From NCBI RefSeq assembly GCF_030551255.1, contig NZ_CP130630.1, positions 1,364,001 through 1,428,000 of the forward strand: a stretch of DNA of 64,000 nucleotides, given 5' to 3'. The notes beneath the pieces are model-generated. The model was not told where the DNA came from, did not search any database, and saw only the letters and a list, made by a program, of their open reading frames with translations. A program made the translations under genes and the position numbers. Positions 30,651 through 39,223 of the stretch are shown piece by piece. Each line of letters begins with the position of its first letter. The stretch's first letter is position 1. The stretch comes from Streptomyces sp. NL15-2K. Its GTDB lineage: Bacteria; Actinomycetota; Actinomycetes; Streptomycetales; Streptomycetaceae.

Positions 30651-31184
30651 TCAGGCCCGCAGCCACTCCGTGACCACGACCTCGTCGCCCGCCCGCAGGC
30701 GCAGGGCGAAGGGCCCCGTGGGGGCTTCCTCGGAGGTGAAGCGGCCCATGTCGTCGGCCACGAGCGGCAGGCTCGTCTGCGGGCCGCCGAGCACCTCGAT
30801 GCGGGCCGGCTGCGGGGGCAGCAGCTGTCCCATCAGGCCCTGTGCGGTCACCTCGACGTCGACGGTCACGTCCCCGGAGTGGAACGTCAGCATCCGGGGC
30901 GGTTCCGTCGCTCCTCTCACCGGGGTCGCGTCGACCAGCGAGTCGAAGGTCAGCTCGGCGAGCCGGGCGTCGAGGTCGTGCAGGGCGTAGGCGTCCACGG
31001 CGATCTGGCGCAGTGCCGGCGGCACCGGGTCGAGGATGCAGGCCGCCTGGGTCAGCTCCCCCAGGAGACCGTCGTCGTGTTCCGCGCCGGGTCCGTCGTC
31101 GAACTCCTCGTCGCCGATGCCTTCTTCGGCGACGGGATCGTCGTTCAGGTCGAACATGTCGCTCATGCCGCTCATGTCGTTCAC
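30651..31184 (-). CDS. Sigma-factor-coupled hypothetical protein
   Basis: A 177-residue cytosolic protein read from GTG 31184, which overlaps the TGA of the sigma factor as GTGA, so the two are translationally coupled. The first ~45 residues are acidic and disordered (many Asp/Glu). Next is a helical stretch (PPALRQIAVDAYALHDLDARLAELTFDS), then a beta-rich C-terminal half (PRMLTFHSGDVTVDVEVTAQG to FALRLRAGDEVVVTEWLRA) like an immunoglobulin or carboxypeptidase-regulatory sandwich. There is no zinc anti-sigma motif and no membrane helix. Its position suggests control of the sigma factor or targeting of the protease; that is inference. I cannot name the family. Confidence 0.7.
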   Translation of the reverse strand: MNDMSGMSDMFDLNDDPVAEEGIGDEEFDDGPGAEHDDGLLGELTQAACILDPVPPALRQIAVDAYALHDLDARLAELTFDSLVDATPVRGATEPPRMLTFHSGDVTVDVEVTAQGLMGQLLPPQPARIEVLGGPQTSLPLVADDMGRFTSEEAPTGPFALRLRAGDEVVVTEWLRA

Positions 31185-31756
31185 AGCGCTCCCCGTGCGT
31201 CGAGTCGGGCCCTGAGGCGGCGCAGACAGCGCTGGCGCAGCGGTCCGATGCTGCCCACCGCGATGCCCAGCGCGGCGGACACCTCCTGGTAGCTGGGCGG
31301 CGGCGAGGCCATCAGCACACGCAGCAACTGCCTGCACCGGTCGCCGAGTTCCTCGAACTCCTGCCACACGCGGCGGATCCGCTCGGTCTCGGCGGCCGCA
31401 TCCTCCGAGTCGAGGAACGACTGCTCGGGCGTACGGTCCTCGCTGACCCGGTCCAGGACCTGCGGATCGTCCGTCGGCGTCGTCCGCCTCAGGCTCTTGA
31501 GCACCTTCAGGCACTCGTGCCGTGCGGTGCTCGCCAGCCACGATCCGGCCTTCTCCGGTTCGCGGATCCGCCCCAGGTGCTGGGCGAAGCGGAACCACAC
31601 CGTCTGGTACACCTCGTGCGCGTCGGCGTCGGAGAGCCGGTGCGCGCGCACGACCGACCACACCAGCGGACTCAGCCCTTCCACCAGCGCTTTCCAGGCC
31701 GCGGCGTCACCGTCGACGGCGGACTGGACGAGCGCGCCGACATCTGTACGGTCCAC
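31181..31756 (-). CDS. RNA polymerase sigma factor, sigma-70/ECF type
   Basis: A 191-residue sigma factor with region 2 (ALVEGLSPLVWSVVRAHRLSDADAHEVYQTVWFRFAQHLGRIREPEKAGSWL, covering the core-binding and -10 helices, ~residues 20-75). A variable linker (TPTDDPQVLDRVSEDRTPEQSF) precedes region 4 (RCRQLLRVLMASPPPSYQEVSAALGIAVGSIGPLRQRCLRRLRARL), the -35-reading helix-turn-helix. GTG at 31756 with a GAGGGG ribosome site gives the usual short N-terminus. It lies 59 bp after the S8 protease gene and overlaps the next small gene. Together they look like one leftward operon facing a CHAT protein gene. No classical anti-sigma factor is seen. Confidence 0.9.
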   Translation of the reverse strand: MDRTDVGALVQSAVDGDAAAWKALVEGLSPLVWSVVRAHRLSDADAHEVYQTVWFRFAQHLGRIREPEKAGSWLASTARHECLKVLKSLRRTTPTDDPQVLDRVSEDRTPEQSFLDSEDAAAETERIRRVWQEFEELGDRCRQLLRVLMASPPPSYQEVSAALGIAVGSIGPLRQRCLRRLRARLDARGAL

Positions 31757-31815
31757 GGCCCCACCCCTCGTGTACGACCAGTCATCGTACGCCGTGGAGG
31801 GGACGGTTCCGGCCC

Positions 31816-33234
31816 TCATGCGCCGACGGAGCGCTGCCCGACCGGGGCCGGGCGCCAGGTGGGCGGGCGCAGCGCCGGTACGTGCGCCCCGCGCACCTCC
31901 GCGAGTTCGGTGTTCGCGGCGAGCAGCTGCTGCCGGGCGGCGCGGGGGTCGGTCTCCTTGTGCGCGGCCATGTGGGCGGCGATCATCCCGGCGACCACGG
32001 GGGTGGCGAAGGAGGTGCCGCTCCAGTGCGCGAACCCCTCGAACATCACCTGGTCGGGCTTGGTGGCGGCGTTCGCCTCGCTCAGCACGCCGGTGTGCCG
32101 GGGCGACTGGCAGGTGCATTGGTAGGTGAAGCCGTAGCGGCAGGCGTCGTACGTGGAGTGCTGGTACACGTACGGCACCGGCGCGTCGAAGCCGGTGAGG
32201 GCGCTGGTGAGGCGCTCGCCGGGGGCGTAGGCGTTCACCCAGGGGCCGTGGTTGCTGAAGCAGGCGCCGTGCTCGCCGTCGCCGCGCAGCGCGCCGACCG
32301 ACAGCACGACGTTCTCGTAGTCGGGCAGCGAGGCGTAGGCGGCGGGCCAGAAGGGGGTGGCGCTGGCGTTGTTGCCGGCCGCGGCGACCAACAGGGTGCG
32401 CTGGGTGCGCAGTTCCCGCATGAAGGCGTCCACGCCGAGCAGGCCGTCGGTGCGGCCGTTGGAGGTGCCGGCGGAGAGGCTGATGACGTCGGGCCAGCCG
32501 TTGTGGTCGACGGCCTCGAAGAGCTTCTCCCCGAACTCGGACTCCAGGATGGCGCCCGCGTCGGTCAGGGTATTGCGGACCGTGACGTTCGTGTTGGGCG
32601 CGACGGCGGCGACGAGCCCGGCGATGAACGTGCCGTGGCCGATGTACTGCTGGAGGTTGCCCTGGCTGTCGGTCTCGGTGCCGTGGAGGTCGCCCTGGAC
32701 GTGGGCGAGCAGCGCGGCGGACGCGTAGTCGTGCGTGAGGCCGTTGTCGATGACGAGGACACCGACGGCGGTGTCCCGGTCGTAGCCGGCCTCGGCCGGG
32801 GCCGGGTTGGTGCCCTGGGTGAGCGGGGCGGGCACGGGCTCGTCGCCGGGGCAGGAGTTGACCGCGATCGACACCACGTGATTGCGGCTGACCAGGCGGC
32901 GTCCGGCCCGTGCCTCGGGCTCGCGCAGGGCCCGCAGGGCGTGCACGACAGCCGGGTCGGCCTGGCCGGGGTCTCCGACCTGGATACGGGTGATGCCCGA
33001 GCGGTTGGTCTGAGGGCTCGCCCGGCGCACGTGGTCGGGCGTCAGATCCGGCGCCTCTGTGAAGTGGGAGCGGATGGTGTCCTCGACGAGCCGTGCCTCC
33101 TCGCCGTCGCGGGCGAGGACCACGCCCTTCTCGTAGAGGAACTCCGCCGCGTCGTCGGGTCCCATGGCCAGGGGGACGTCGGGCATCGAACGCTGGATCT
33201 GGTCGAACTGCTCGTGGAATCGCTGAGGTGCCAT
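31816..33234 (-). CDS. Intracellular S8 (subtilisin-like) serine protease
   Basis: A 472-residue subtilase without signal peptide or transmembrane helix, so it should act in the cytoplasm. The first ~150 residues are an N-terminal region not part of the catalytic fold (FHEQFDQIQRSMPDVPLAM, RLVEDTIRSHF, a strand HVVSIAVNSCPGDEP). The catalytic triad is D163 (GVLVIDNG), H200 (IGHGTFIAG) and S408 (GTSFATPVVAG), with oxyanion asparagine 288 in AAAGNNA, so it should be active. An insert at about residues 355-385 carries three cysteines (CRYGFTYQCTC). ATG at 33234 follows GGGAGG. It heads an operon with the sigma factor and is divergent from the CHAT gene over 109 bp. Confidence 0.9.
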   Translation of the reverse strand: MAPQRFHEQFDQIQRSMPDVPLAMGPDDAAEFLYEKGVVLARDGEEARLVEDTIRSHFTEAPDLTPDHVRRASPQTNRSGITRIQVGDPGQADPAVVHALRALREPEARAGRRLVSRNHVVSIAVNSCPGDEPVPAPLTQGTNPAPAEAGYDRDTAVGVLVIDNGLTHDYASAALLAHVQGDLHGTETDSQGNLQQYIGHGTFIAGLVAAVAPNTNVTVRNTLTDAGAILESEFGEKLFEAVDHNGWPDVISLSAGTSNGRTDGLLGVDAFMRELRTQRTLLVAAAGNNASATPFWPAAYASLPDYENVVLSVGALRGDGEHGACFSNHGPWVNAYAPGERLTSALTGFDAPVPYVYQHSTYDACRYGFTYQCTCQSPRHTGVLSEANAATKPDQVMFEGFAHWSGTSFATPVVAGMIAAHMAAHKETDPRAARQQLLAANTELAEVRGAHVPALRPPTWRPAPVGQRSVGA

Positions 33235-33330
33235 GGCGTGTCCTCCCGTTGAGGCGATGGTCGTCAGTCAGAGCGGCGTGACCGGCGATTGATACAGCGC
33301 CAAACCTGTTTCGGGTGCATCCGGGGCCAC

Positions 33331-33346
33331 TACCATCCATGAGGTG
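33331..33346 (+). promoter_or_regulatory. -10 element and leaderless start of CHAT gene
   Basis: TACCAT (33331-33336) lies seven bases before GTG 33344. There is no Shine-Dalgarno sequence, so transcription and translation probably start together. The -35 region (TGTTTC) is weak. The 109-bp gap also has to hold the leftward S8 protease promoter. Confidence 0.5.
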
Positions 33347-35950
33347 ACAGCGGGAAGCGACTCGGTTCTCGAATTGCTGCCGATGGTGTTCGCCGCACCG
33401 AACGAGGCGCTGGCGAAGGCGGAAGGGGTGCTCGACGCCGATCCCACACTGCTGGATGCCTCCGTCGCCCACCAGGTGATCGGGATCTGGCAGCGGGACT
33501 GGGGCGACCTCCGGCTCGCGCTGCACCATCTGCGCCGCGCCCGCGATCTGGCCGCGCGCGCGGAGTCGGCGGACCGGGAGGCGGACGTCCTGGCCGCGCT
33601 CGGTGTGGCGCTGGTGCACGCGGGACGCACCCGGCAGGGCCTGGAGGCGCTGGAGCGGGGTGTCGCGGTGAGCAGCGGCCACACGCGCGCGCGGGTGCTG
33701 TTCCGGCGGGCCTACGCCTCGTGGGTGCTGGGCCGTCACCGGGAGGCGCTGGAGGACGTGCGCCGGTCGGTCCCCGTGCTGCGGCAGGCGGACGACGTCA
33801 TCTGGACGGCGCGCGCGCTGACCCTGCGCGCCACCGTGCATCTCGCGCTCGGCGCGGTGGACCGCGCGGACGCCGACTTCACCGCGGCCGAGGCGCTGTG
33901 GGACACCACGGGCCAGGAGCACGACAAGGCCGACGCGGTGGAGAGCCGGGGCCTTGCCGCGTTCCGGTCCGGGGACATCCCGGCGGCGCTGCGGCTCCTT
34001 GACGAGGCCGAGGAGCGGTACGCCAAGCTGGGCACGCCGACGTTCATGCTGAACATCCGGCGCTGCGAGGTCCTGATGGCCGCCGGGCTCGCCCCGGAGG
34101 CGCTGGCCGAGGCGGACGCGGCGATCGCCGTCCTCGACGGCATCGGCGGGCAGTCCACCCGCAAGGCGGAACTGCTGCTGGCCGCCGCGCGGGCGGCCCG
34201 GCTGGTGGGCGATCCGCACACGGCGATCGCGCGCGCGGACATGGCCGTACGGCTGTTCGCCGGGCAGCGGCGCACCTGGTGGGAGACGCACGCCCGGCTG
34301 GTGCTGATCGAGGCCCGGGTCGCCGCCGGGCGCGGCTCCGGGCGACTGGTCGCGGACGCCGCCGCGGTCGCCGACCGGCTGGCCGCCTTCGGCGCGCCGG
34401 CCGCGCCGGAGGCCTCGCTGCTCGCCGGTCGGATGGCGCTCGACCTGGGCTGGACGGCGGACGCGGAACGGCACCTGGCCGTCGCCGCCCGCAGCAGGCA
34501 CAGCGGGCCGCCGCTGGCCCGGATGACCGGCTGGGCGGCCCAGGCGCTGCGGGCCCGGGCGGCCGGCTCCGGCCGCGGTGTCCTGGAGGCCTGCCGGCGC
34601 GGCCTGGACGTGCTCGACGACCACCGGATGACGCTCGGCGCCTCGGAGTTGCGGGCCCGGGCCACCGCGCAGGGCGCGGAGCTCGCCGCGCTGGCCCAGC
34701 GGGCCAGTCTCGACTCGGGCGGGCCTCGGCGGCTGCTGAGGTGGAGCGAGCGCTGGCGGGCGACCGTCCTGTCCGCGCCGCCGACCCGGCCGCCCGCCGA
34801 CCCGGCGCTGCTCGGCGACCTCACCGCGTTCCGCGAGATCGCGGCCCGCGCGGAGGAGGCCCGCAGGGACGGCCGCTCGGTTCCGGCCCTGGAGCGCGAA
34901 CAGCGGCGGCTCGAGCGGGAGATCCGCTCCCGGACCCTGCACATGCGCGGCGACGCGCCCGGCGACGGAGACCGGTTCGCCCCCGCCCGGTTGCTGGAAC
35001 GGCTCGGTGACGACGTACGGCTGGTGGAGCTGGCCGTGCTCGACGGGCGCGTCCATGTGCTGCTGTGCGGGCAGGGGCGGGTGCGGCGGTTCGAGGCGGG
35101 GCTGCTCGCCGAGGCGGAGACCGAGGCCGAGCATGTGCAGGCCGGGCTGCGGCGGCTGGCCCATCCGGGGGCGGAGGCACGGCTTCCGGTGGTGGCGGCG
35201 GCGGGCCGCCGGCTGGAGGAGCTGCTGCTCGGGCGGGCGGCGGCGCAGCTGGGCCCCGGTCCGGTCGTGGTGGTGCCGCCTGGGCGGCTGCACCGGGTGC
35301 CGTGGGCGCTGCTGCCCTCGCTGCGGGACCGGGTGTTCAGCGTGTCGCCGTCGGCGAGCAGCTGGTTGCGGGCCCGGGAGACGGCGCCGCCGCCCGGCGG
35401 ACGGCAGGTGCTGGTGCGCGGCCCGGGGCTGGCGACCGGCGGCGCGGAGGTGCCCGAACTGGCCGACCGGTACGGCGGATCGACCGTGCTGGAGTACGAA
35501 GAGGCGCGTGTGCCACGGGTGTTGGAGGAGCTCGACGGCTCGGCGCTGGCCCACATCGCCGCGCACGGCACGTTCCGCGCGGACAGCCCCCTGTTCTCGT
35601 CCCTGCGGATGGCGGACGGCCCGCTCATCGTCCACGACTTCGAACGCCTGGACCGCAGCCCGTACCGGATCATCCTGTCCTGCTGCGACACCGCCCGGTT
35701 CGCGTCCGTCGGCGCCGACGAGCTGCTCGGCCTGGTCACCGCGCTGCTGCCGCTGGGTACGGCCGGCGTGGTGGCGTGCAGCGCGCCCGTCAACGACGCG
35801 GCGGTGGTGCCGCTGATGCTCGCGCTGCACAAGGGGCTGAGCGCCGGTCTGTCGCTGGCGGAGGCGCTGCGCGACGCGCGGGCCGCGCTGCCGGGCGACG
35901 CGACGCACCAGGCGACGGGGTGGGCGTTCTCGGCGTTCGGGGCGGCCTGA
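33344..35950 (+). CDS. TPR-CHAT caspase-like protein
   Basis: An 868-residue protein. Residues ~1-480 are helical tetratricopeptide-type repeats (for example RVLFRRAYASWVLGRHREALEDV and ALTLRATVHLALGAVDRADADF). The C-terminal ~330 residues are a CHAT (caspase HetF associated with TPR) protease domain with strands VRLVELAVLDGRVHVLL and PGPVVVVPPGRLHRVPWALLP. The catalytic pair is H741 in HIAAHGTF and C781 in ILSCCDTA (the family's SACxT position). CHAT domains are cysteine proteases related to caspases and separase; several act in bacterial conflict or death systems after sensing a partner. Start GTG 33344 is probably leaderless. It faces an S8 protease/sigma operon, which may hold its substrates or activators. 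Confidence 0.9.
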   Translation: MTAGSDSVLELLPMVFAAPNEALAKAEGVLDADPTLLDASVAHQVIGIWQRDWGDLRLALHHLRRARDLAARAESADREADVLAALGVALVHAGRTRQGLEALERGVAVSSGHTRARVLFRRAYASWVLGRHREALEDVRRSVPVLRQADDVIWTARALTLRATVHLALGAVDRADADFTAAEALWDTTGQEHDKADAVESRGLAAFRSGDIPAALRLLDEAEERYAKLGTPTFMLNIRRCEVLMAAGLAPEALAEADAAIAVLDGIGGQSTRKAELLLAAARAARLVGDPHTAIARADMAVRLFAGQRRTWWETHARLVLIEARVAAGRGSGRLVADAAAVADRLAAFGAPAAPEASLLAGRMALDLGWTADAERHLAVAARSRHSGPPLARMTGWAAQALRARAAGSGRGVLEACRRGLDVLDDHRMTLGASELRARATAQGAELAALAQRASLDSGGPRRLLRWSERWRATVLSAPPTRPPADPALLGDLTAFREIAARAEEARRDGRSVPALEREQRRLEREIRSRTLHMRGDAPGDGDRFAPARLLERLGDDVRLVELAVLDGRVHVLLCGQGRVRRFEAGLLAEAETEAEHVQAGLRRLAHPGAEARLPVVAAAGRRLEELLLGRAAAQLGPGPVVVVPPGRLHRVPWALLPSLRDRVFSVSPSASSWLRARETAPPPGGRQVLVRGPGLATGGAEVPELADRYGGSTVLEYEEARVPRVLEELDGSALAHIAAHGTFRADSPLFSSLRMADGPLIVHDFERLDRSPYRIILSCCDTARFASVGADELLGLVTALLPLGTAGVVACSAPVNDAAVVPLMLALHKGLSAGLSLAEALRDARAALPGDATHQATGWAFSAFGAA

Positions 35951-35969
35951 CCCGCACGTGCGGGCATGA

Positions 35970-36190
35970 GGGCCTGTCCGGCGGATCAGGTCGCAGGAAA
36001 TCGGCGGCGCCAAATCAGCGCAGGTGAGCGGGGTCTGGTGCGTCCAGCTGCAAGGCGGAGGAGGGCGTCGACGCGATGGGGGTCCCCCCGCGCGAGGTTG
36101 TTCGAGCGTGGGGGAGTCGGCAACCGACGACAACGCCGCAGATGGGCGTGCCAGACCCCGCGTCTGCGGCATGATCCGCCGGACAGGCCC
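35970..36190. mobile_element. 221-bp MITE-like repeat with 19-bp terminal inverted repeats
   Basis: The ends GGGCCTGTCCGGCGGATCA (35970-35988) and its exact complement (36172-36190) bound a 221-bp non-coding element. Inner sequence is also partly symmetrical: GTCTGGTGCGTCCAGCTGC matches the complement of the right inner arm at 15 of 19 positions. From memory, similar intergenic blocks recur in many Streptomyces genomes. It has no transposase and fits a miniature inverted-repeat element. I cannot see a clear target-site duplication. It fills most of the 303-bp gap between the CHAT and LuxR genes. Confidence 0.75.
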
Positions 36191-36196
36191 CAAGAG

Positions 36197-36235
36197 GCGG
36201 CCTGACCCCTCCCCCGATCACGGGGGTCAGACCGC
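36197..36235 (-). terminator. Terminator of LuxR gene
   Basis: A 13-bp stem with one mismatch (36197-36209 with about 36223-36235) lies 19 bases past the LuxR-family stop codon. Confidence 0.65.
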
Positions 36236-36253
36236 CGGTCTCATGGGCGCAGT

Positions 36254-38065
36254 TCAGGCCGACTGCGCTTGCGGCAGTGCCACCAGCCACGGCAGGGCGC
36301 CGCGGTCACTCGCGCCGAGCCGGACGTAGGCGCTGTAGAGGTGGTTGCCGACGGTACGGACCGACAGGGTGAGCTTCTCCGCGATCTGCCGGTTGCTGAG
36401 GCCGGCCGCCGCGAGGGTGACGATCTGCCGCTGCCGGGCGGTCAGTTCGCCCAGGACCAGCCCGGACAGCGCCGGAGTGCGGGCGCCCTGGCAGCGCCGG
36501 GCGAGCGCGACGGCGCGGGTGCGCGAGGTGCGGGCGGCGCGCGGGTCGCGGTGCGCCCGTACGGCCTGGGCGTGCGCCTCGGCCGCGAAGAGCAGGAAGC
36601 CGCGCTGCTCCAGCCGTACGGCCGCCCGGTCCAGGTCGGGTCCGTCGCCGCGGGCGAGGGCGTCGGCGTGGGCGGCGAAGACGCCGGTCAGACGGCCGAG
36701 GGCCTGCTCGGGTGCGCCGAGGCGGACGGCATCGTAGGGATCGATCGTCTCCACGGCTCCGTCGAGGTCACCGCGGGCGGCCGCCTGCCAGGCCGCCGTC
36801 GCATCCCCTAGGCCCTCCTGGGAGAGTTCGCCCGACTGGGCGGCCGCCTGGGCGAGTTCGGCGCGGCAGGACCGGTCGCCGGGCGCGCTCCGCAGCCCCT
36901 CCCTCGCCCAGGCGGCCGCCTCCCGCAGCTCCCCCCGCAGCCGCGAGAACCGCGCTCGTACGGCCGCGTAGCCGGCCGGCACCGGTGCGCCCTCCGCCAC
37001 CAGCCACTCCCCCACGGGCGCGGGAATCGTCCGTACGTCGGCACTGTCGATCCCTCGTGTGAGCGCGGCCGCCTCCGCCTCCAGGGCGGCTGTGCAGCTG
37101 TCCGGTGTGCGGGCCAGTCGTTTGGCCCGCAGCCGTCCGGCGGCGGCCCGCAGCACCGGGCCGTGCAGCGGGTGGGCGAGGCGGACGGTGCCGTGGTCGT
37201 CGACGTGGACCAGGCCGTCGGCCTCCAGGCGTTCGAGGCTCCGCAGGTCGAGGTCGTCCAGGTGCGGCGGCAGGGGTTCGCCGAAGGCCAGCCGTTCGAG
37301 GGTCTCGCGCTCCTTTGGGCAGCCGCGGTCGAGGACGGGCGCGCTCCGCTCGCGTACGGTCGCGGTCATCGGCACCGGGCCGCGCCACGCCCACTCGTCC
37401 GTCTCCGGAACCCGGGTGAGCAGCCCGCCCTCGCGCACCGCGCCCACCAGATCGCGCAACAGCCGCAGGTCCCCCTGGCACAGGCGGTACAGCCGGTCGA
37501 CGGTGAGCGGCTCCAGGCCGCCACCGGCACCCGCCGTCAGCAGCTGGGCCGTCTCCTCCCGGGGCAGCGGCTCCAGGGAGAGGCGCGGCAGCAGCTCCCC
37601 GGTCCACAGCCGGGAGATGGCGCCGGGCACGGGGGCGCCGTCCGTGGCCACGACCAGCAGGCGGGTGCGTCCGTGCACGGCGAGCTGGTGGACCAGGCCG
37701 GCCGAGGCGTCGTCGAGCAGGTCGGCGTCGTCGACCAGCAACAGCCGGGTGCCGGACAGCAGCTGGACCGCGCGGTGCAGCGAGACGTTCTCGGGAAGGA
37801 GGTGGGCGAACGCGGCGAAGGGGATCCGGCGGGTCTCGGGCGTCCCGGCCACCTTGGCGCAGTCGGACCCGCGGACGGCCTCCGTCACGAGGCGGGTCTT
37901 GCCGCTGCCGGCCGGGCCCGTCACCACGATGCCGTGGCGTGCGGAGGTCACGGACCGGCGGACCAGTTCCAGTTCGTCGTCCCGGCCGGTGAAGGGCCAG
38001 GGCAGCTCCAGGGTCTTCGCGCCCCGTTCCAAAGTCGTCACGAAAGCTAGAGCCGCCGTACTCAA
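36254..38065 (-). CDS. STAND ATPase / LuxR-family transcriptional regulator (LAL-like)
   Basis: A ~603-residue large regulator. An N-terminal AAA/STAND ATPase has Walker A GPAGSGKT (residues 50-57) and Walker B RLLLVDDAD (107-115). A winged-helix and helical-repeat middle follows, and the C-terminal LuxR helix-turn-helix LTARQRQIVTLAAAGLSNRQIAEKLTLSVRTVGNHL covers about residues 542-585. It would integrate ATP and a signal to activate transcription. The start is uncertain: TTG 38065 lies inside an inverted repeat and GTG 38041 is an alternative; neither has a ribosome site. It is divergent from the astacin-like protease across 60-85 bp containing a perfect 8+8-bp dyad, which suggests it controls that gene. 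Confidence 0.88.
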   Translation of the reverse strand: MSTAALAFVTTLERGAKTLELPWPFTGRDDELELVRRSVTSARHGIVVTGPAGSGKTRLVTEAVRGSDCAKVAGTPETRRIPFAAFAHLLPENVSLHRAVQLLSGTRLLLVDDADLLDDASAGLVHQLAVHGRTRLLVVATDGAPVPGAISRLWTGELLPRLSLEPLPREETAQLLTAGAGGGLEPLTVDRLYRLCQGDLRLLRDLVGAVREGGLLTRVPETDEWAWRGPVPMTATVRERSAPVLDRGCPKERETLERLAFGEPLPPHLDDLDLRSLERLEADGLVHVDDHGTVRLAHPLHGPVLRAAAGRLRAKRLARTPDSCTAALEAEAAALTRGIDSADVRTIPAPVGEWLVAEGAPVPAGYAAVRARFSRLRGELREAAAWAREGLRSAPGDRSCRAELAQAAAQSGELSQEGLGDATAAWQAAARGDLDGAVETIDPYDAVRLGAPEQALGRLTGVFAAHADALARGDGPDLDRAAVRLEQRGFLLFAAEAHAQAVRAHRDPRAARTSRTRAVALARRCQGARTPALSGLVLGELTARQRQIVTLAAAGLSNRQIAEKLTLSVRTVGNHLYSAYVRLGASDRGALPWLVALPQAQSA

Positions 38066-38089
38066 GCCTGATACAGGGTGACTTGAGTA
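38059..38089. promoter_or_regulatory. Dyad between LuxR regulator and astacin gene
   Basis: TACTCAAG (38059-38066) and CTTGAGTA (38082-38089) are perfect complements separated by 15 bases, placed in the shared control region of the divergent genes. A regulator dimer site is likely. Confidence 0.55.
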
Positions 38090-38125
38090 GGCCCCGACTC
38101 AGGCGCTGCCTGGACGGTCGACGGC

Positions 38126-39223
38126 ATGCTCATCGTCATGACCGCACGCTACTGCTCCCTCGCGCAGCAGCCCGCCCCCGCTTTCGCGGCCGGGCTGGCC
38201 GCCGAGCGGCTCAGTGCGCTCATCGGCGGAAGCCGTATGTGGGTCAACAGCACCGTGCTGCACTACTACTTCTTCGACGACGACACCGACGGCTCGGTCA
38301 TCGCCGTCCCCGGCACCGGGGCGACCCGGCGGGTGTCGTGGGCCGGGGCCAAGGAACAGCAGGACGTCGTACGCGAGTGCTTCCAGGAGTGGCAGGACCT
38401 CGGCATCGGGGTGTCGTTCGCCGAGGTCGGCGACCGTTCGGAGGCCGAACTGCGTATCGGGTTCCAGCTCGGCGACGGCTCCTGGTCGACCGTGGGCAAG
38501 GACGCGCTGCGGGTCGGCCTGCACGAGCGCACCATGAACTTCGGCTGGGACCTGACCGCGCCCGGTGAGCGTGGGACGGCACTGCACGAGATCGGGCACG
38601 CGCTCGGCATGCTGCACGAGCATCAGAGCCCGTTCGCCGGCATCCACTGGGACGACGAGGCCGTCTACGCCGATCTGGCGGGCCCGCCGAACTTCTGGAA
38701 CCGGGACCGGACGTTCTTCAACATCCTGCGCAAGCTCGACCGCGACGAGGTCAACGGTTCCGTCTGGGATCCGCACTCGATCATGCAGTACCCCTTCTCG
38801 TCGGGGCTGATCCTGGAGCCGGAACAGTACCGCGCGGGTCTGCACCCGCCGGGCACGCTCTCGGCCGCCGACAAGGAGTTCGTCCTGCGCTGGTACCCGC
38901 CGGCCGTTCCGCCGCGGCCGCCGGCGCTGGTGCCCTTCCGGTCGGCACCGCTCGGCCTCGGCCCGGGCGAACAGGCCGACTTCGTCGTCGAGCCGCCGGA
39001 GACCCGCGAGTACACCGTGGGCACGTTCGGCGACAGCGACACGGTCGTCGTGGTCTTCGAGGAACGAGACGGCGAGCCCCGCTACCTCACCGGCCAGGAC
39101 GACGGGGGAACACCGCGCAACGCCACGATCAAGGCCCATCTCGTCAAGGGCCGCCGCTACTTCGTCCGTGTGCGCCTGTACTCCGGCTGGGGTTCGGGGG
39201 AAACAGCCGTCATGTGCTGGTGA
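38126..39223 (+). CDS. Astacin-like (M12A) zinc metalloprotease, no signal peptide
   Basis: A 365-residue protease with the astacin zinc signature HEIGHALGMLHEHQSP (H154, E155, H158, H164) and the Met-turn SIMQYPF (M220, Y222), as in family M12A. The N-terminal part (MWVNSTVLHYYFFDD, ECFQEWQDLGIGVSFAEV) matches the substrate-cleft strands of this fold. A C-terminal ~110-residue beta domain (YTVGTFGDSDTVVVVFEE to RYFVRVRLYSGWG) resembles a pre-peptidase or binding sandwich. No signal peptide is evident, so an intracellular role is likely, unusual for astacins. ATG 38126 or 38138 may be the start; no clear ribosome site. Divergent from a STAND/LuxR regulator. Confidence 0.87.
   Translation: MLIVMTARYCSLAQQPAPAFAAGLAAERLSALIGGSRMWVNSTVLHYYFFDDDTDGSVIAVPGTGATRRVSWAGAKEQQDVVRECFQEWQDLGIGVSFAEVGDRSEAELRIGFQLGDGSWSTVGKDALRVGLHERTMNFGWDLTAPGERGTALHEIGHALGMLHEHQSPFAGIHWDDEAVYADLAGPPNFWNRDRTFFNILRKLDRDEVNGSVWDPHSIMQYPFSSGLILEPEQYRAGLHPPGTLSAADKEFVLRWYPPAVPPRPPALVPFRSAPLGLGPGEQADFVVEPPETREYTVGTFGDSDTVVVVFEERDGEPRYLTGQDDGGTPRNATIKAHLVKGRRYFVRVRLYSGWGSGETAVMCW

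Follow-up and report, generated by a model that had tools for sequence, protein, structure and literature searches.

Described here is a set of six genes within a 64,000-nucleotide stretch (termed here the window) of the Streptomyces sp. NL15-2K genome (contig NZ_CP130630.1, positions 1,364,001 to 1,428,000), where, at window positions 30651 to 39223, a sigma factor, a small protein and two predicted proteases are encoded beside the regulators AbsR1 and AbsR2. An initial annotation of this DNA had read these genes as a cascade of sensing and proteolysis; all six lie where it had put them, five of them with Pfam or NCBIfam matches. The analysis centers on a promoter-like element, TGTATCA-N16-CTC, that occurs in both halves of the locus.

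Six genes and their predicted products

Read from the AbsR1 end, the gene order is AbsR1(-) AbsR2(+) CHAT(-) S8(+) sigma(+) small(+), which is reversed in the orientation of the window. On the minus strand of the window lie genes for an S8 subtilase (472 aa; positions 31816-33234), a sigma factor of the extracytoplasmic function (ECF) type (212 aa; 31181-31819) and a small protein (177 aa; 30651-31184). The ATG start of the sigma gene overlaps the S8 stop codon (ATGA) and the GTG start of the small-protein gene overlaps the sigma stop codon (GTGA), by 4 nt in each case, so that the three genes form a coupled S8-sigma-small operon, divergent from the gene for a CHAT protein with tetratricopeptide repeats (TPR-CHAT; 868 aa; plus strand, 33344-35950). 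The overlap of the sigma factor with the small protein, pointed out initially, is borne out, with the sigma gene corrected to the boundaries given here. Signal peptides are not evident, as judged by eye only.

The S8 protein matches Pfam family PF00082 (75 bits), and its previously proposed triad, D163/H200/S408, is identical in all 27 Streptomyces rows and all 18 other rows examined. The CHAT protein matches PF12770 (92 bits), and the dyad H741/C781, also proposed beforehand, is kept in 28 of 29 Streptomyces rows (the remaining row has E and Y); outside Streptomyces, H741 is found in 21 of 21 rows and C781 in 20 of 21 (one gap), and both residues are invariant in a 40-sequence alignment. Having both a TPR superhelix and a CHAT domain with conserved His and Cys, this protein falls among the TPR-CHAT proteases, and the nearest matches to its predicted fold are Csx29 and separase. 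Both TPR-CHAT and S8 are predicted intracellular proteases, and the initial idea of sensing followed by proteolysis is plausible, given these conserved catalytic residues and the likeness of the CHAT fold to Csx29 and separase. Judging by gene order and description, the S8 protein would be the orthologue of SCO6995, whose transcript is AdpA-dependent and whose expression inhibited antibiotic production (PMC2936110). A separate observation concerns five S8 cysteines (C128, C325, C365, C373 and C375), which are invariant in 27 of 27 Streptomyces rows, are nearly absent from the 18 other rows, and may serve this cytoplasmic protease in metal binding or redox chemistry.

The sigma factor matches TIGR02937 over its full length (68.7 bits) and Sigma70_r2 (PF04542; 41 bits), and its profile matches solved ECF sigma factors, including SigH, SigE and SigW chains (best E 4e-16). 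It is assigned to the ECF type as consisting of regions 2 and 4 without other domains, region 4 having no Pfam match of its own. Its S. coelicolor counterpart is probably SCO6996, a sigma factor that is among the proteins detected in a published study (PMC9739823). Searches of Pfam, NCBIfam and PADLOC assign the small protein to no family at E<=0.1; it has 823 homologues at E<=1e-3 (of which the best 120 were listed). Its predicted architecture (AlphaFold2; predicted local distance difference test score, pLDDT, 83) consists of an acidic, low-confidence N-terminus, two helices (residues 38-84), a flexible linker (residues 85-95) and a beta-sandwich. Translational coupling to, and co-occurrence with, the sigma factor make it a candidate cognate anti-sigma factor; it is also a candidate protease substrate.

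The remaining two genes had been taken for an undescribed pair of a LuxR-type regulator and an astacin-type enzyme, but both have been published: the former encodes AbsR2 (SCO6993 family; minus strand, 36254-38041; NF050132, 1058 bits against a cut-off of 850) and the latter AbsR1 (SCO6992 family; 365 aa; plus strand, 38126-39223; NF050131, 743 bits against a cut-off of 650). AbsR2 is a LuxR-type large ATP-binding regulator (LAL), with a P-loop ATPase and a C-terminal LuxR helix-turn-helix (HTH): GerE scores above its cut-off and a Walker A motif (GPAGSGKT) is visible, AAA_16 and other ATPase models scoring below theirs. SCO6993 represses actII-ORF4 and redD and binds its own promoter, its deletion raised actinorhodin 9-fold, and aerial mycelium requires it (PMC9628970).

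AbsR1 matches the astacin family (PF01400; 31 bits) and myroilysin (E 9.6e-32), and in the window it has a complete HExxHxxGxxH motif (H154-H164), with its three zinc-ligand His, and a Met-turn, SIMQY. The zinc-ligand His are kept in all 22 aligned sequences, the Met-turn Tyr is replaced in five of the 22, and the catalytic Glu155 is retained in only 17 (with Q or T in 5). Because this Glu is replaced in 5 of 22 sequences, AbsR1 is probably not a third protease; nor does the three-protease cascade initially envisaged find support in the published work on the orthologue SCO6992, for which no protease activity was detected (PMC9705864). According to the same report, SCO6992 binds zinc, has beta-glucuronidase activity and raises actinorhodin and undecylprodigiosin, an effect that is suppressed when SCO6993 is present; absR1 is up 56-fold in secondary mycelium (PMC3897704). 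The name 'beta-glucuronidase' given to AbsR1 by NF050131 is backed by PMC9705864, yet its sequence is that of an astacin/myroilysin-type metzincin.

An element shared by both halves of the locus

The element was found by aligning the gap between S8 and CHAT across 27 Streptomyces loci: amid sequence that varies in length and composition, TGTATCA is present in 27 of 27 and CTC follows at a fixed spacing, 16 nt later, in 27 of 27. In the window this copy lies upstream of the S8-sigma-small operon (minus strand, 33271-33296), and a second copy lies upstream of absR2 (minus strand, 38050-38075), where the element is exact in 24 of 25 loci and has one mismatch (GTC for CTC) in the other (L051). The 555 kb of Streptomyces sequence fetched for 29 loci contain 49 sites, 26 before S8 and 23 before absR2, and none elsewhere, to which the window adds one of each kind; 307 kb from 20 loci of genomes lacking the block contain no TGTATCA-N16-CTC and one looser GTATCA form. 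Genome-wide, a stricter form, TGTATCAN{15,17}CTCT, was sought as exact matches in 46 genomes. The two matches in the source genome both lie at this locus; away from it there are 7 matches in 23 genomes with the block and 8 in 23 without, a similarity that marks them as background. At the level of sequence, the module, its distribution, its shared element in a near-exclusive location, its conserved S8 and CHAT active sites and the Csx29/separase-like predicted fold are established.

The open frame of absR2 extends to a TTG codon at 38065; the start is more likely the GTG at 38041, which in the Streptomyces loci listed lies 8-9 nt after CTC, a spacing that suggests a leaderless transcript. Immediately upstream of the second element lies a putative AbsR2 operator (GCGCCTGAGTC ... 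CTACTCA; minus strand, 38076-38106), which the Streptomyces loci listed conserve ahead of absR2. The published SCO6993 footprint, GGTCCCGGCGCCTGAGTC, and the conserved GCGCCTGAGTC that immediately precedes the element have GGCGCCTGAGTC-type sequence in common.

For other Actinomycetota the form was relaxed to NGTATCA-N16/17-CTC, a choice made after viewing 20 loci outside the genus (described below). The 13 of these that bear the sigma factor contain 25 relaxed sites, distributed over 12 of the 13, against a mean of 0.46 and a maximum of 8 for 179 permuted hexamers, a control that is partly circular since the form was chosen on the same loci. A better test is provided by 80 sigma loci fetched after the form had been relaxed (some of whose genomes may overlap with the 20-locus set): here 81 GTATCA-N16/17-CTC sites occur in 52 loci, against a permuted-hexamer mean of 3.5 and maximum of 30 sites. 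Spacers in the 80 loci are concentrated at the same lengths, with 10 sites at 14-15, 81 at 16-17 and 14 at 18-19. Over both sets (109 sites), the gene downstream is S8 at 19, small at 13, sigma at 12 and CHAT at 1. In one locus (L098, 11638-13293) a gene after CHAT has the element 50 nt upstream and encodes a protein that contains a Calx-beta domain and, as judged by eye, seems to start with a signal peptide; this is a possible alternative output.

Such an element might instead be an operator for a repressor or activator, either AbsR2 or another protein, in which case the genes would be co-regulated and the sigma factor would have its targets elsewhere. That AbsR2 binds its own and two other promoters (PMC9628970) would accord with this, as would the half-sites ACTCA...TGAGT flanking the absR2 copy of the element; the published footprint, however, matches sequence upstream of the element. 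Moreover, loci that lack AbsR2 retain the element: it precedes S8 in L049, L056 and L059, and it is found in many AbsR2-free loci of other genera. ECF promoters typically consist of two parts with a 16-17 nt spacer, which again counts against an operator. Finally, the outside loci contain 3 sites in 112 kb without, against 25 in 246 kb with, a linked sigma factor and small protein, a contrast qualified by the fact that two of those three sites (L106 and L108) are at or near S8. On balance we regard an operator as unlikely.

Distribution within Streptomyces and beyond

The Streptomyces sample comprised 101 genomes, the window's own and 100 drawn evenly. Of these, 28 have CHAT, 27 have S8, and AbsR2 and AbsR1 are present in 25 each; close sigma orthologues occur in 27, with distant matches in three more. 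S8 adjoins CHAT in all 27 S8-bearing genomes, and in the 28th CHAT genome (G001) the contig begins inside CHAT. The initial annotation had left room for the S8/sigma/CHAT group and the LuxR/astacin pair to be unrelated neighbors; they do co-occur, in that all 25 AbsR carriers are among the 28 CHAT genomes and AbsR2 is found in none of the 73 CHAT-negative genomes. One genome (G033) keeps AbsR2 and has as its only AbsR1 a 53% identical copy elsewhere. The locus occupies a fixed chromosomal place near the IDH gene, which is also present in 20 negative genomes, none with a block gene in the adjoining sequence fetched (2.3 kb for one genome, about 16 kb for the other 19). An IDH tree was made of these 20 and of 20 positive genomes, the latter being those among the 27 loci whose IDH is complete; two changes on this tree account for the block, so the 28 presences are not independent events, and within Streptomyces the locus essentially marks one clade. 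In one genome inside that clade (G026) the formylglutamate hydrolase gene is still present and none of the six block genes is found there.

This fixed place bears on the possibility that the locus serves phage defense or programmed death, with CHAT and S8 killing the cell and the sigma factor only boosting expression. CHAT and S8 proteins do occur in defense loci, and TPR-CHAT resembles Csx29. Against such a function, in addition to the constant position near IDH, speak the published phenotypes, which are developmental and metabolic (antibiotic production and development), and the PADLOC results: CHAT, sigma, small and AbsR1 have no match there (though a family may be missing from it), S8 gives a match to a generic subtilase model and a weak one to IetS, and AbsR2 matches CARF models with the best stretch in its C-terminal HTH part. 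The analysis yielded no evidence for a defense role, which on these indirect grounds seems unlikely.

At E<=1e-45, S8 is found in 7 of 396 Actinomycetota genomes, all within the genus; because the S8 homologues beside CHAT outside the genus are only 26-36% identical in the matched part, this threshold is too strict for them. CHAT, at E<=1e-12, is found in 48 of the 396, including 41 outside the genus. Twenty high-scoring outside CHAT loci from 19 genomes, searched with iterated profiles, all contain CHAT, together with S8 in 17 of them, with sigma in 14 (weakly in L101) and with small in 13; none has AbsR1, and two have AbsR2, as partial matches to the LuxR end; no other gene cluster is common to more than two of them. 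The 80 sigma loci, which are the best of 468 confirmed stretches from a sigma profile search, span Solirubrobacter, Lentzea, Catellatospora and Acidimicrobiia, and include small in 68 (always within 400 nt after sigma), CHAT in 56 and S8 in 49. Seven of them carry AbsR2 homologues at E<1e-50, each with the element directly upstream: two Streptomyces, three Planotetraspora, Thermomonospora echinospora and an Actinomadura; AbsR1 occurs in one of the 80, a Streptomyces. The Thermomonospora and Actinomadura loci (L182 and L185) have AbsR2-CHAT-S8-sigma-small in the order and orientation seen here, with both sites, while those of Planotetraspora have sigma and small, S8 and CHAT not being found in the stretch examined.

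These seven loci matter for deciding whether the protease/sigma genes constitute a stress module of separate function with which the absR pair has merely been co-inherited in one Streptomyces clade. The clade-like distribution would fit this, three genomes keep the core without AbsR2 and AbsR1, and the core lacks AbsR2 in most loci outside Streptomyces. Two separate modules would leave unexplained, however, why 24 of 25 absR2 promoters have the shared element, why CHAT-negative genomes lack AbsR2, and why AbsR2 recurs with the element and in the same order in Thermomonospora and Actinomadura. It is mainly this conservation across taxonomic orders, rather than the genus counts, that ties the halves together; with the five-gene order in two other genera and the same element on both halves, the two groups of the initial annotation behave as one unit, and mere co-inheritance is quite unlikely.

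Several further observations concern individual loci. In a Streptomyces sp. (L186, 3591-5609) the AbsR2 homologue is split over two adjacent frames and may be broken or mis-sequenced. In Herbidospora and Acrocarpospora (L205, L192 and L224) a large ATPase-type gene lies directly behind sigma, under the element, with small, S8 and CHAT not found nearby. Profile matches in one Actinomycetota genome (L112) suggest tandem double CHAT/S8/small copies. In the window itself, CHAT and absR2 converge, and between them lies a 227-bp repeat (35966-36192, unstranded) that resembles a miniature inverted-repeat transposable element and has an 18-bp inverted repeat, perfectly matched, near either end; it has 84 matching pieces in the source genome, about 20 of them long, and is an insertion in that genome, outside the system.

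A probable protease-controlled sigma switch and its relatives

Taken together, these patterns make it fairly probable that the genes form one regulatory circuit, namely a sigma switch that operates without CRISPR, is controlled by proteases and has AbsR2 as its output in Streptomyces. In this model the small protein would inhibit its cognate ECF sigma factor, with which it is co-translated; a signal read by TPR-CHAT and/or S8 (the TPR superhelix being a natural place for its input) would lead to the small protein being cleaved or unloaded, thereby freeing sigma; and free sigma would recognize TGTATCA-N16-CTC and transcribe both absR2 and its own S8-sigma-small operon, the latter amounting to positive feedback with built-in re-inhibition. 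AbsR2 would then repress pathway-specific antibiotic activators, affect aerial growth and bind its own promoter, with the divergently transcribed AbsR1 opposing it. We infer that sigma reads the element and that the small protein inhibits sigma, and likewise which protease cuts what: if S8 (or CHAT) removes the small protein, antibiotics should fall, which fits both the lowering of antibiotics upon S8 overexpression and the role of AbsR2 as a repressor.

Several findings weigh against this model. The small-protein profile has no sequence match to any PDB structure at E<=1, and its fold-search rows covered residues 95-177, so that the helical part is barely covered. Small is absent from 12 of the 80 sigma loci, S8 from 31, CHAT from 24 and the element from 28 (some contigs being short), and small, S8, CHAT and the element occur together in only 18 of the 56 loci of at least 15 kb. 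Three relaxed sites occur in the seven outside loci without linked sigma and small; 20 of the 109 sites precede a gene outside the module, and 44 have no clear downstream gene by the rule used, which means that the rule is a coarse one or that many of the sites have other functions. Of the 28 CHAT-positive Streptomyces genomes, 3 (G013, G027 and G077) have neither AbsR2 nor AbsR1, and the counts for the genus reflect few events. Lastly, the SCO6995 overexpression result is given as 'data not shown' in PMC2936110.

More tentatively, and with somewhat less confidence than doubt, the circuit may be one instance of a relative of the Craspase output arm that is widespread in Actinomycetota and does without CRISPR. 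In it, TPR-CHAT and S8 would control an ECF sigma factor via a small, coupled inhibitor; the GTATCA-N16-CTC promoters would be self-driven and the targets exchangeable; AbsR2 would be the target in antibiotic producers, so that intracellular proteolysis would gate the antibiotic decision. If the model is correct, then activation by AbsR1, repression by AbsR2 and the lowering of antibiotics by SCO6995 would belong to a single circuit, for which both an order and a promoter are predicted; TPR-CHAT control of sigma might be a general mode of bacterial signaling, beyond CRISPR; and silent antibiotic clusters would gain a defined handle. The model also names a candidate input to AbsR2, a point left open in published accounts of this regulator insofar as they bear on it.

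Among known systems, absR1/absR2 of Streptomyces coelicolor (SCO6992/SCO6993) belong to the same two NCBIfam equivalog families and are likewise adjacent and divergent; unlike the present analysis, the literature on them, in the portions that describe the pair, treats it alone, with the S8, sigma and CHAT genes unmentioned. In the regulated proteolysis of RseA/sigma-E, RseA is membrane-bound, whereas the module proteins here look cytoplasmic (by eye). DdvA is, according to a structure listing, also a membrane protein and is itself the anti-sigma factor. The CalpL-CalpT-CalpS system of type III CRISPR differs in that its protease is a Lon-SAVED protein activated by cyclic tetra-adenylate (cA4), rather than a TPR-CHAT protein. 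A further parallel is the type III-E CASP/Craspase system, in which the CRISPR-associated protease Csx29 cleaves Csx30, an inhibitor of CASP-sigma, and in which sigma motifs lie within the system's own locus (PMC10028731); Csx29 chains are among the best fold matches to TPR-CHAT. Unlike that system, the 64 kb window has no CRISPR array, as judged from direct repeats of at least 20 nt no more than 150 nt apart (Cas7-11 was not searched for); the small protein, at 177 aa, has no match by sequence in the PDB; and the module adds an S8 protease and recurs across Actinomycetota.

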